Assembly: GCA_016286785.1 (NCBI GenBank)
Contig: JAEEUB010000006.1
Coordinates: forward strand, 1 to 45,391
From: Candidatus Saccharimonadota bacterium
Lineage (GTDB): Bacteria; Patescibacteriota; Saccharimonadia; Saccharimonadales; Saccharimonadaceae
Length of the DNA: 45,391 nt
Reading direction: 5' to 3'
The translations under genes were made by a program, and so were the position numbers. Positions 30,850-35,023 of the stretch are shown piece after piece; position 1 is the first letter of the stretch; each line of letters opens with the position of its first letter. Below the pieces are notes generated by a model. That model was not told the DNA's origin, did no database searches, and saw only the letters and a program-made list of their open reading frames with translations.

Positions 30850-31272
30850 ATGGCTACTATCGACCAGCAATTTGTAGAATACATAGTAAAAACCTTAGTC
30901 AACAATCCTGAAAAGGTAGCAGTTGAACGCAAGATCGACGAAAAGGGTGTGCTTCTCTCCCTCACGGTAGATCCAGAAGATGTAGGTCGGGTAATCGGCA
31001 AACGTGGCGTAACTGCCCAAGCAATAAGAGTTCTTTTAAGGGCTCTAGGCACAAAACAAGATGCGCGCTACAATCTTAAAATCGTTAATACTGACGAAGA
31101 AGGCACGGCTCATCATGGTTCAAAGCCAGAAGAAACCCCAGTAGTAGATGAAAGCACAACAAACGACACGGAAGATGAAGATGTGACGGAGGAAGAGGAA
31201 TCATCGGCTACATCTGAACTTGCCGAAAAAACTCGGGCCGAACTAGCAGATTTGGACGATTTGGATATCTAA
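30850..31272 (+). CDS. khpA: KH-domain RNA-binding protein KhpA
   Basis: The first ~80 of 140 residues form a small KH domain: DQQFVEYIVKTLVNNPEKVAV, then the GxxG loop in GRVIGKRGVTAQAIRVLLRAL. KhpA binds RNA, often with KhpB, and affects division and translation in Gram-positives. The last ~60 residues are a strongly acidic tail (DDTEDEDVTEEEE-like) not found in the usual ~75-85-aa protein; it may tune RNA binding, which is inference. It sits next to rpsP as in many bacteria. Confidence 0.9.
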   Translation: MATIDQQFVEYIVKTLVNNPEKVAVERKIDEKGVLLSLTVDPEDVGRVIGKRGVTAQAIRVLLRALGTKQDARYNLKIVNTDEEGTAHHGSKPEETPVVDESTTNDTEDEDVTEEEESSATSELAEKTRAELADLDDLDI

Positions 31273-31280
31273 ATTTTACC

Positions 31281-31314
31281 AAAAAAATAACCCCAAAACA
31301 GGGGTTATTTTTTT
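31281..31314 (+). terminator. Terminator of khpA
   Basis: A-run plus TAACCCC, AAAACA loop, GGGGTTA plus T-run. The stem is the same as in the rplO terminator. Confidence 0.92.
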
Positions 31315-31325
31315 ATAAAAAAGGC

Positions 31326-31353
31326 TTGACAAATAATATGAGAAGACTATAAT
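31326..31353 (+). promoter_or_regulatory. Promoter of a candidate small RNA upstream of rpoB
   Basis: TTGACA (31326-31331), 16-bp spacer, TATAAT (31348-31353). Start expected near 31360. Confidence 0.75.
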
Positions 31354-31358
31354 AAACT

Positions 31359-31444
31359 TAAGCTAACTGCGAGTCGGCTTATACATAAAAAGTTGAGAGC
31401 TTATATATGTCTAGAAATCCGCTTTTCTTTGAAAGCGGTTTTTT
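31359..31444 (+). ncRNA. Candidate ~85-nt small RNA
   Basis: Between a consensus promoter and a terminator lies a short unit with no usable ORF. A 5' hairpin (31359-31381) pairs TAAGCT with GGCTTA and ACT with AGT around a GCG loop. A weaker ACATA/TATGT pair (31383-31387 with 31406-31410) follows, then the terminator stem CCGCTTT/AAAGCGG and six Ts. It could be a trans-acting small RNA or an attenuator for rpoBC. I recognise no known RNA family. Confidence 0.5.
31415..31444 (+). terminator. Terminator of the candidate small RNA
   Basis: CCGCTTT (31419-31425) / AAAGCGG (31432-31438) then TTTTTT. Confidence 0.85.
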
Positions 31445-31458
31445 GGGCCTAAAACATA

Positions 31459-31487
31459 TTTACAAAATCAAAACCTCGTAGTATAAT
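31459..31487 (+). promoter_or_regulatory. rpoBC promoter
   Basis: TTTACA (31459-31464), 17-bp spacer, TATAAT (31482-31487). It gives a ~150-nt leader, much longer than any other here. Confidence 0.7.
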
Positions 31488-31493
31488 CAAATA

Positions 31494-31642
31494 TAAGAAG
31501 TAGTGTGCCTTATTTTTATTACTTGATGAGAGCTGGCGACTCTCAGGGGGAAAATAGGGCAGTAATCTTCGGCGCTGAGATGGCAGCCTAGCTAGAGCTG
31601 ACGTCAAAAAAGAATACTAATAACACTAATAAAAGAGGTAGA
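31494..31642 (+). promoter_or_regulatory. Structured leader of rpoBC
   Basis: The leader folds well by eye. A 10-bp helix pairs 31507-31516 (GCCTTATTTT) with 31551-31560 (AAAATAGGGC). Inside it TGAGAG (31527-31532) pairs with CTCTCA (31540-31545) around a 7-nt loop. ATTACT (31518-31523) can pair with AGTAAT (31561-31566), crossing the outer helix to make a pseudoknot or an alternative fold. A GCTG/CAGC hairpin (31574-31587) follows. GAGGT before the ATG is the ribosome site. A regulatory role is inferred. Confidence 0.5.
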
Positions 31643-34600
31643 ATGGCTACAAAACCAAAGTCCGGTGAAAGAGTTTTTTTCACCGAAGGTGACCAAGCAC
31701 TGCCAATTCCGGATCTTACGGCACACCAAAAAGATTCTTGGGCAGACTTTGTCGATAACGGACTAAGGGAAGTTTTTGAGGAGCTAAATCCAATCAAGGA
31801 TTACACCGGCAACAAACTCTCTCTTAGCTTTAAAGAACATTATTTTAAAGAACCAAAAGAAACGGATGCTCAGGCAAAATACAATCTTGCTAGTTACGAA
31901 GCACCGCTTCACGTTGTAGTTGAGGTCGAAAATCTAGAAACTGGAGCCAAAAAAGAACAAGACATCTATTTTGGCGATTACCCATGGATGACTGATCGGG
32001 CTACGTTTATCATTAATGGCACAGAACGCGTAGTTGTTTCACAATTAATTCGTTCAGCTGGCGTTTTCTTTAGTGCCGAAACTATCGGTCTAAAGAGATA
32101 CTACGGAGCAAAGGTAATCCCAGGTCGTGGTGCATGGCTCGAATTTGAAACTGCCGGCAACGGCGCAATGTATGTCAAGATTGATCGTCGCCGCAAAATC
32201 CCAGTAACTACTTTCTTAAGGGCACTAGGATTAACAAAATCCGAAATCAAACAAAGCTTTGCCGCCGTAGACAATGGCGAAAAGAGCTACATCGAAGCAA
32301 CCCTAGAAAAAGACACAACATCTAGCCAAGGCGAGGCGTTACTTGAGGTTTATCGCCGTCTTCGTCCAGGCGACCTAGCGACGGTCGAAAACGCTAAGTC
32401 GATGATTGAAAGAACATTCTTCGATCCAAAGCGTTATGACTATTCAAACGTAGGTAGATTCAAGATTAACCGCAGACTCGGGTTCGATACACCTAACGAT
32501 CCAGAACACCGTACATTGCAAATTGAGGATGTTATTGCGATAATTTCCGAAATTATTCGCCTAAACAACACTCAGGAACCAGCAGACGATATCGATTCGC
32601 TTTCAAACCGTCGTGTAAAACTAGTCGGCGAGCTCGTCCAAAGACAGTTCAGACTAGGTATGCTTCGTCTGCAAAGAAACATTTTAGACCGCATGTCGAT
32701 GGCAAACCCAGAAGAAGTTACGCCGTCCCAACTTCTAAATCCTCGTCCGGTAGTGGCGGCAGTAAAAGAATTCTTTGCTACCTCTCAGCTTTCACAATTA
32801 ATGGACGAAGTTAACCCATTCTCGGAGCTAGCTCACAAAAGGCGTCTAAGCTCGATGGGGCCTGGTGGTTTAACCCGTGAGCGTGCTGGGTTTGATGTGC
32901 GCGATGCCCACCCAACCCATTATGGCCGTATTTGTACCGTGGAAACACCAGAAGGCGGCAACGTGGGGCTTGTACTTAACTTTGCTACTTACGCCAAAAT
33001 CAACGAATACGGATTTATCGAAGCGCCATACCGTGTCGTTAAAAATGGCAAAGTTACCGACGAAATTGTTTACATGGACGCCGATACCGAAAAAGACAAA
33101 GTAATCGCAGATGCCTCGGTTAAGCTAGATAAGGATGGAAAATTTGTAGAAGATTGGGTTTCTGCCCGTGTGCATGGCACGCCAGCTCAGGCCGAAGCAT
33201 CAACAGTGACCCATATCGATGCAGCACACAAGGAAATTCTTGGCGTATCAGCATCGCTGATTCCATTTGTCGAGAAAAACCGCGTAGACCGCTCTCTAAT
33301 GGCCTGCGCAATGCAAAAACAGGCTGTACCGCTACTAAGAAATGATAACCCAATCGTGGGTACCGGTATTGAGGGCGAAGTCGCCAAAAACACTTCCCAA
33401 TTAGTAACAGCAATCGGCAAAGGGGTGGTAAAGAAAGCCGATGGCGATTCTGTGATAGTTACTTATGACAAGGGTGGTGATATCGAATATAAATTACAAC
33501 ACTTCGAAAAGACCAACGACGACCGTTGCTACAACCAAAGATGCGTCGCCGCTCGAGGTCAAAAAGTCAAAAAGGGCGATATCCTGATTGAAGGCGCCTC
33601 CATCAATAACGGCGAGCTCGCCCTTGGCCGTGATCTCATAGTCGCTTTCATGCCTTGGCGTGGCTACAACATGGACGACGCCATCGTTATTTCAAATCGT
33701 TTGGTTGAAGACGATACATTAACGTCCATCAATATAAAGGATTTCGACGTAGAAGTTCGTGAAACCAAATTGGGTCCAGAGCAAGTCACAAGAGACATTC
33801 CAAACGTATCGGAGCACTCACTTCGCCATCTCGGTGAAGACGGTATCGTCACTATTGGCTCAGAAGTCAAAAACGGAGACATCCTAGTAGGTAAGATTAC
33901 GCCAAAAGGTGAGCAAGAACTAAGTTCTGAAGAGAGGTTACTCCGTGCAATCTTCGGCGAAAAAGCCAAGGATGTACGTGATACCTCAATTCGTATGAAC
34001 GGCTCATCAACCGGCAAGGTCGTAGATGTACGCGTTTACACCAGAGAGCAAGGACACGAGCTAAAAGCTGGCGTAATCATGCAAATCAAGATCTTTGTAG
34101 CCGAAATGCGTAAAATCGGTGTTGGCGATAAGCTCGCTGGACGCCACGGCAACAAAGGTGTAGTATCCCGTGTATTGCCAGTTGAAGATATGCCGTTTAT
34201 GGAGGATGGTACTCCTGTAGATATTGTTCTTTCACCGATGGGCGTACCTTCCCGTATGAACCTAGGCCAGCTATTTGAAACGCACCTTGGTATGGCAGCC
34301 AGAGCCTTAGGCTATAAAGTCGCAACACCTTCATTTAACGGTGTACCAGATGAAAAAATCTCAGAAGAGCTCAAAAAAGCAGGCCTAGCTGAAGATGGTA
34401 GAGTTCAACTATACGATGGACTAACTGGCGAACCATTCAACGAAAGAACTTCCGTTGGGGTAATGCATATGCTAAAGCTTCATCACATGGTAGAAGATAA
34501 AATTCATGCCCGTTCAACTGGACCTTACACCATGGTTACCCAGCAGCCGCTAGGTGGTAAAGCTCAAAATGGTGGCCAAAGGTTTGGGGAAATGGAAGTC

Positions 34601-35023
34601 TGGGCGCTAGAAGCTTATGGCGCAGCAACTACACTTCAAGAAATGTTAACAATAAAGTCCGATGACGTCTACGGCCGTGCTAAGGCTTACGAAGCAATCA
34701 TCAAACACGAGCCAATTGAAGGACCAAAGCTCCCAGAAGGATTTAATGTTCTGGTAAAAGAATTACAAGGTTTAGGTCTCAAAGTTGACCTTCTAGACCA
34801 CGGCGAATCAGCCGATGCGGGCGACGTCATCGAACGCACTTCGAAAGAAATCGAAAAATCGAAAGATGATCAATCCATCTACGATCAGCACAAAAAGGAT
34901 ACCGAACCGGAAATCTATGACCTCGACGAATCAGAGGCCGAAGCAATGATCGCCGAAGAAGGTATCGATATTAATGAGGAAGACGAAGACGATGGTGCAG
35001 TTGACCTCGGAGAGGAGTTCTAA
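31643..35023 (+). CDS. rpoB: RNA polymerase beta subunit
   Basis: This 1126-aa beta subunit forms one side of the RNA polymerase active cleft. The rifampicin-pocket region QLSQLMDEVNPFSELAHKRR-LSSMGPGGLTRERAGFDVRD is intact, with Val at the E. coli N518 position and Met at L533. PWRGYNMDDAIVIS, GDKLAGRHGNKGVVS and the C-terminal GGQRFGEMEVWALEAYGAA are all present. It is a compact form without the large lineage inserts of E. coli. An acidic tail (INEEDEDDGAVDLGEEF) ends the protein. rplJ and rplL, usual upstream partners, are not here. rpoC follows after one base. Confidence 0.97.
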   Translation: MATKPKSGERVFFTEGDQALPIPDLTAHQKDSWADFVDNGLREVFEELNPIKDYTGNKLSLSFKEHYFKEPKETDAQAKYNLASYEAPLHVVVEVENLETGAKKEQDIYFGDYPWMTDRATFIINGTERVVVSQLIRSAGVFFSAETIGLKRYYGAKVIPGRGAWLEFETAGNGAMYVKIDRRRKIPVTTFLRALGLTKSEIKQSFAAVDNGEKSYIEATLEKDTTSSQGEALLEVYRRLRPGDLATVENAKSMIERTFFDPKRYDYSNVGRFKINRRLGFDTPNDPEHRTLQIEDVIAIISEIIRLNNTQEPADDIDSLSNRRVKLVGELVQRQFRLGMLRLQRNILDRMSMANPEEVTPSQLLNPRPVVAAVKEFFATSQLSQLMDEVNPFSELAHKRRLSSMGPGGLTRERAGFDVRDAHPTHYGRICTVETPEGGNVGLVLNFATYAKINEYGFIEAPYRVVKNGKVTDEIVYMDADTEKDKVIADASVKLDKDGKFVEDWVSARVHGTPAQAEASTVTHIDAAHKEILGVSASLIPFVEKNRVDRSLMACAMQKQAVPLLRNDNPIVGTGIEGEVAKNTSQLVTAIGKGVVKKADGDSVIVTYDKGGDIEYKLQHFEKTNDDRCYNQRCVAARGQKVKKGDILIEGASINNGELALGRDLIVAFMPWRGYNMDDAIVISNRLVEDDTLTSINIKDFDVEVRETKLGPEQVTRDIPNVSEHSLRHLGEDGIVTIGSEVKNGDILVGKITPKGEQELSSEERLLRAIFGEKAKDVRDTSIRMNGSSTGKVVDVRVYTREQGHELKAGVIMQIKIFVAEMRKIGVGDKLAGRHGNKGVVSRVLPVEDMPFMEDGTPVDIVLSPMGVPSRMNLGQLFETHLGMAARALGYKVATPSFNGVPDEKISEELKKAGLAEDGRVQLYDGLTGEPFNERTSVGVMHMLKLHHMVEDKIHARSTGPYTMVTQQPLGGKAQNGGQRFGEMEVWALEAYGAATTLQEMLTIKSDDVYGRAKAYEAIIKHEPIEGPKLPEGFNVLVKELQGLGLKVDLLDHGESADAGDVIERTSKEIEKSKDDQSIYDQHKKDTEPEIYDLDESEAEAMIAEEGIDINEEDEDDGAVDLGEEF

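Follow-up and report, generated by a model that had tools for sequence, protein, structure and literature searches.

The window, a stretch of 45,391 nucleotides, makes up contig 13 in a genome of 767 kb. The rpoB gene it carries has its closest named relatives among Candidatus Saccharibacteria of gut and rumen. The genes rpoB and rpoC form a transcription unit of about 7 kb, and the gene upstream of rpoB, khpA, ends at position 31272. Features of the intervening region and of the leader are collected in Table 1.

Across the genus, a -10 element matching at least five of six consensus positions is found in 74 of 89 leaders; in 55 of the 89 it lies 8 nt ahead of AGAAG, the commonest spacing. On the basis of this spacing and of the promoter in the window, we predict a transcription start at 31494/31495, coinciding with the invariant AAGAAG. 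The rpoBC leader (31494-31642) begins 7 nt past the promoter and runs for about 149 nt from the predicted start to the rpoB ATG at 31643, in agreement with the original prediction of a long leader ahead of rpoBC.

Table 1. Positions, in the window, of the rpoBC leader elements and of neighbouring features
Feature	Position	Strand	Basis
Promoter of small upstream unit, TTGACA-16-TATAAT	31326-31353	+	12/12 consensus
Terminator of small upstream unit	31419-31438	+	
Promoter of rpoB leader: -35 TTTACA (31459-31464), 17-nt spacer, -10 TATAAT (31482-31487)	31459-31487	+	11/12 consensus
Invariant unpaired AAGAAG, transcript 5' end (predicted)	31495-31500	+	94-100% identical over genus and order
P1 5' strand, TAGTGT	31501-31506	+	Comparative pair counts; pairs with 31623-31628
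P2 5' strand (10-bp helix of the original prediction)	31507-31516	+	Pairs with 31551-31560
P3 hairpin, TGAGAG-CTGGCGA-CTCTCA	31527-31545	+	Significant covariation
L3 loop segment, TGGCG, predicted to kiss 31573-31577	31534-31538	+	Loop complementarity
P2 3' strand	31551-31560	+	Pairs with 31507-31516
P4 5' strand, AGTAATCTT	31561-31569	+	Pair counts; pairs with 31610-31618
L4 loop, CGGCGCTG; CGCTG (31573-31577) predicted to kiss L3	31570-31577	+	Loop complementarity
P5 variable insert hairpin (GATG/CGTC, CAGC/GCTG)	31579-31605	+	Sequence and relatives
P4 3' strand	31610-31618	+	Pairs with 31561-31569
P1 3' strand, ACACTA	31623-31628	+	Pairs with 31501-31506
Shine-Dalgarno of rpoB, GAGG	31635-31638	+	Sequence
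rpoB (RNA polymerase beta subunit), served by the leader	31643-35023	+	Pfam
rpoC, next gene after rpoB	from 34974	+	

Comparative analysis of the leader fold

The folding energy of the leader, taken alone, is unremarkable (z = -1.61; 10 of 200 shuffled sequences fold as well), and the case for structure therefore rests on comparison. Of 99 genomes in the genus, 91 yielded an rpoB gene; we gathered leaders from 89 rpoB loci and built a covariance model from 12 of these. The predicted architecture is a long-range helix P1, joining the 5' end to a region about 16 nt before the start codon, followed by P2/P3, P4 with an optional P5, and a kiss between loops L3 and L4. P1 begins 6-7 nt from the predicted 5' end, and its distance to the start codon has a median of 16 nt in the genus.

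Pairing holds in 92.4% of cells of the genus alignment, and 299 cells carry double changes, versus 78.6% and 87 in shuffled alignments, none of 500 shuffles reaching the observed values. Changes on both sides occur at 20 of the 26 pairs, with a covariation score of 0.410 (0.164 shuffled). The order alignment gives 86.1% of cells paired, changes on both sides at 23 of 26 pairs and a score of 0.533 (0.165 shuffled). Because alignments built with a model lean towards that model, we added a tree-aware, R-scape-like null that redistributes substitutions over a FastTree tree, with significance set at E <= 0.05. Against this null, six pairs are significant among the genus leaders and 11 among those of the order, all of them (6/6 and 11/11) within the proposed P2 and P3. 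P1 and P4, which vary less than the other helices, stay below significance in this test and are supported by pair counts.

Both helices of the original prediction are recovered. As P2, GCCTTATTTT (31507-31516) pairs with AAAATAGGGC (31551-31560) over 10 bp, one of them G.U, and the enclosed 6-bp hairpin TGAGAG/CTCTCA (31527-31532/31540-31545) corresponds to P3; double changes are seen at eight of nine modelled pairs in P2 and at five of five in P3. A third pairing, of ATTACT with AGTAAT (31518-31523/31561-31566), had been put forward as a pseudoknot or two-state switch. It finds no support: 49.5% of its cells pair, against 49.4% in shuffles, with no covariation, and AGTAAT belongs instead to P4. 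The core of P4 (31564-31569/31610-31615) can be extended by eye to 31561-31563/31616-31618 through an outer AGT/ACT, and in the window it contains an A.A mismatch (31565/31614); 94% of its cells are paired, with double changes at five of six pairs. P1 is also paired in 94% of cells, with compensatory changes at two pairs, as in TAGTTTG/CAAACTA variants. P5 (31579-31582/31602-31605 and 31584-31587/31597-31600) is present in some relatives and missing from many others. The long-range P1, P4 with its insert and the L3-L4 contact extend the fold beyond what was first described.

G.U cells outnumber A.C cells in the leader alignment by 170 to 36, which argues that the folded molecule is the transcript of the + strand. 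Together with the compensatory changes, this bias speaks against a signal acting at the DNA level or on the opposite strand. Residues invariant across the order include AAGAAG (31495-31500) and CUUC (31567-31570), each 90-100% conserved. The two segments are mutually complementary (GAAG/CUUC) and, since both are invariant, a pairing between them would lie beyond the reach of covariation.

A predicted tertiary contact between the loops of P3 and P4 is supported by their complementarity. The P3 loop reads URGCG in the genus and UGGCA/G elsewhere, and complements a P4 loop reading CGCUA, or GCCA/GCCG; the window combines UGGCG (31534-31538) with CGCUG (31573-31577). Several variants change in concert, namely UUGCG/CGCAA (locus L078), CAGCG/CGCUG (L022), UUGGCA/UGCCAA (L134) and UUAGC/GCUAA (L053). 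The loops AGGGG/CCCCU of L079, read by eye, form part of a larger loop outside the statistically tested set. For the 100 distinct loop pairs tested, mean complementarity is 4.57 versus 4.34 after shuffling of partners (1/1000), and loop-loop duplex energy is -6.25 versus -5.90 (11/1000), the shuffles in both cases ignoring relatedness.

Occurrence of the leader and its relation to known RNAs

The covariance model found the leader RNA in all 89 rpoB loci of the genus, and the RNA is single copy in the genome of the window. It is present through the family and the order, with matches at E <= 0.1 in 158 of 295 order genomes and 72 of 143 genera, the genomes being a sampled set, mostly of metagenome assemblies, and the E-values rough owing to a shortened calibration. 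The context of matches from outside the genus was read with no preselection for rpoB. All 39 fetched in a first set adjoin this gene, save one chance match at E = 1.7, and in two further sets it lies beside 38 of 40 and 36 of 40 matches. Matches with no adjoining rpoB lie at contig ends, in a repetitive protein gene or on the opposite strand, and two come from outside the order. That whole-genome matches at E near 0.1 adjoin rpoB lends strong and independent support to homology of the leaders. Diverged members of the order that score poorly still hold AAGAAG-AGTG and CTTCG at corresponding places.

The phylum-level search returned only two matches beyond the order, neither ahead of rpoB, and in the genomes checked the leader was not found before any other gene. 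The gene upstream of it varies (khpA in the genus, clpP and others elsewhere), and the leader remains with rpoB. One genome bin (G138) holds two rpoB loci (L158 and L264), each with the leader RNA, which would mean that rpoB is duplicated or that the bin is mixed.

Searches of Rfam 15 assigned no family to the leader or to 20 of its relatives, and the matches of weak E-value all lie upstream, at 31270-31448. The search works in this genome, since it recovered a canonical L10_leader (RF00557) ahead of rplJ (50.5 bits against a cut-off of 44; locus L320, 1800-1946 (-), contig C8). The early suggestion of a structured leader and possible new regulatory RNA is borne out by an element that is conserved, covarying, specific to rpoB across the order and absent from Rfam.

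Four known elements invite comparison. The Lacto-rpoB motif (RF01709), listed for Lactobacillales (PMC2864571), is likewise a structured RNA candidate upstream of rpoB known from comparative genomics only, but it belongs to a different clade; it has no gathering match in the window or in the 20 relatives, and none to the leader itself up to an E-value of 5. The L10_leader, through which L10(L12)4 controls rplJL, resembles our leader in being cis-acting in an operon family that often includes rpoBC. It sits before rplJ, however, whereas our leader sits before rpoB and has no covariance-model match; no kink-turn was seen in the rpoB leader. Since rplJ and the L10_leader that serves it are on a different contig, rpoBC would here be free of the usual coupled control. 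In E. coli, beta/beta' are subject to autogenous control, both transcriptional and translational, as stated in the part of PMC4670729 that cites Dykxhoorn et al. 1996. Within that account, the rplL-rpoB attenuator and autogenous control of rpoBC resemble the mechanism proposed below in acting after initiation, ahead of rpoBC and through product feedback; our leader differs in having no intrinsic terminator, in having its own promoter and in not following rplJL. Finally, a cyanobacterial candidate (cluster 245) known from two genomes was interpreted as an rpl/rpoBC attenuator (PMC1242208), and resembles our leader, by description only, as a conserved predicted structure before rpoBC. In a literature made up mainly of freely readable papers, the only comparable structured leaders that we met were Lacto-rpoB and the cyanobacterial candidate, and we found no report of a structured RNA before rpoB in Saccharibacteria. 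We rate the rpoB leader as a new RNA family of the cis-acting structured-leader type, with an unusual target.

Possible modes of action

The leader shares two general traits with cis-regulatory leaders, namely compensatory changes that support the structure and a constant 5' UTR position in one operon. From these comparisons, the rpoBC leader is almost certainly a cis-acting structured (cis-regulatory) RNA of this Candidatus Saccharibacteria order.

Several familiar devices were rejected. The leader contains no intrinsic terminator, the sole terminator-like site on the + strand lying upstream at 31419-31438, and transcription attenuation was discarded for this reason. Blocking P1 hardly alters the predicted accessibility of the Shine-Dalgarno (median 0.59 versus 0.57 in a pseudoknot-free model), which speaks against sequestration by this helix. 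The UCUUCG/CGAGGA pairing of other genera is no conserved switch because it is absent in the genus of the window, where the Shine-Dalgarno reads AAAGAGGT, and broken in another genus, g11 (UCUUCC). No conserved upstream ORF or alternative pairing was found in the leaders examined; closed frames exist, but, measured against the P3 loop, they are scattered over the three phases (39/30/17), contrary to a leader peptide. As to rRNA mimicry, AGAAGCAG occurs in the GTPase centre of the LSU rRNA, yet local alignments are no better than shuffles.

The Shine-Dalgarno of rpoB outside the genus is itself of note, as it takes an extended conserved form, GCGAGG(A/G), which is rarer before other start-like codons of the same loci (seen at L217, L218, L225, L229, L232, L234, L235, L236, L238, L243, L248 and in other relatives outside the genus).

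The explanation that we tentatively prefer, with somewhat less than even confidence, is an order-specific cis-acting rpoBC leader subject to feedback by a product of the operon. The leader would control expression of the operon downstream, and the likeliest effector would be a protein that the operon makes, either free RNA polymerase or the beta/beta' subunits, given that the leader occurs only before rpoB, in single copy, and has many conserved unpaired residues. By binding the fold beside the ribosome site, such an effector may lower translation or stability of the mRNA. Restriction to rpoB favours an operon product over a metabolite; furthermore, the leader tracks rpoB and, in the genomes checked, no other gene, and L10 control is separately accounted for. 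Against this, no expression platform was recognised in the leader. Conservation ahead of one gene does not alone demonstrate feedback by its product, and RNA polymerase feedback, our leading candidate for the mechanism, is held a shade more cautiously than the explanation as a whole. Equally provisional is the broader hypothesis of an order-wide RNA class that senses polymerase: RNAP or beta/beta' would bind directly to the kissing-loop fold with which their own mRNA starts, and this class may stand in for the control coupled to ribosomal proteins that operates where rpoBC lies behind rplJL.

Alternatively, the fold may be a constitutive 5' UTR element which senses nothing and either shields a long essential mRNA at its 5' end or aids ribosome loading. 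A structure that spans the transcript from its start to just upstream of the Shine-Dalgarno, with neither terminator nor conserved alternative pairing found, would suit such a role. Stabilising hairpins need not preserve unpaired sequence, however, whereas in this leader AAGAAG and CUUC show 90-100% invariance throughout the order, and the loops have kept their tertiary contact. We consider this alternative rather unlikely, if the strongest of those competing with product feedback.

Less probable again is a metabolite riboswitch, in which the junction and kissing loops would pocket a small molecule tied to transcription capacity, for example a nucleotide or alarmone. Many aptamers share a multi-helix junction, a loop-loop contact and conserved unpaired residues, and by analogy the leader, conserved order-wide with all three, could be one of them. 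Most riboswitch classes, typically if not obligatorily, head several kinds of genes; this leader occurs only before rpoB, once per genome, with no recurrence across the genes of a pathway, and no expression platform was seen.

Two further ideas appear improbable, to the same degree. The leader might be controlled by some other protein, be it L10/L12 or a further ribosomal protein, a Nus factor or KhpA. Among leaders bound by proteins, those of ribosomal proteins are the most frequent kind, and co-regulation of rplJL-rpoBC is classical in E. coli, but rplJ lies elsewhere with a canonical L10_leader that the rpoB leader does not match, resemblance to LSU rRNA does not exceed that of shuffles, and in the other genera examined the gene upstream of rpoB is not khpA. 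A put-like action, with the nascent leader binding the transcribing polymerase and changing how it pauses or terminates along the 7 kb of rpoBC, would fit a motif at the extreme 5' end of a transcript tied to the RNAP operon, but there is no known downstream terminator to overcome and neither put nor other RNAP-binding RNAs are known to be restricted to rpo genes.

How the amount of RNA polymerase is controlled in bacteria is not fully understood, E. coli included (PMC4670729). In the present reduced epibiotic order, whose rpoBC is uncoupled from rplJL, one strongly conserved folded RNA stands solely before rpoBC. The leader offers a compact object for testing RNA-based control of polymerase supply, and adds a new RNA family to a branch in which few RNAs have been catalogued.

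A small transcription unit upstream of the leader

Between khpA and the rpoB promoter lies a separate small transcription unit (31326-31446, + strand), to which Rfam gave no match. Its core is conserved as AACTGCGAG...GTTGAGAG.TTATATGTCTAAAAA, and the motif was matched as a pattern in about 55 of the 89 rpoB upstream regions of the genus. It also occurs in other genera of the family, in several cases directly after a khpA-like C-terminus and away from rpoB. We regard this unit as a candidate for a small RNA linked to khpA, or else for a tiny leader ORF. Read by eye, the first hairpin shows apparent covariation among relatives (AAGTAAA/TTTACTT, AAGTTAA/TTAACTT and AAGCTAA/TTAGCTT, in loci such as L061, L068, L079 and L088). 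Furthermore, the loop AACT could pair with a downstream AGTT, suggesting an H-type pseudoknot.
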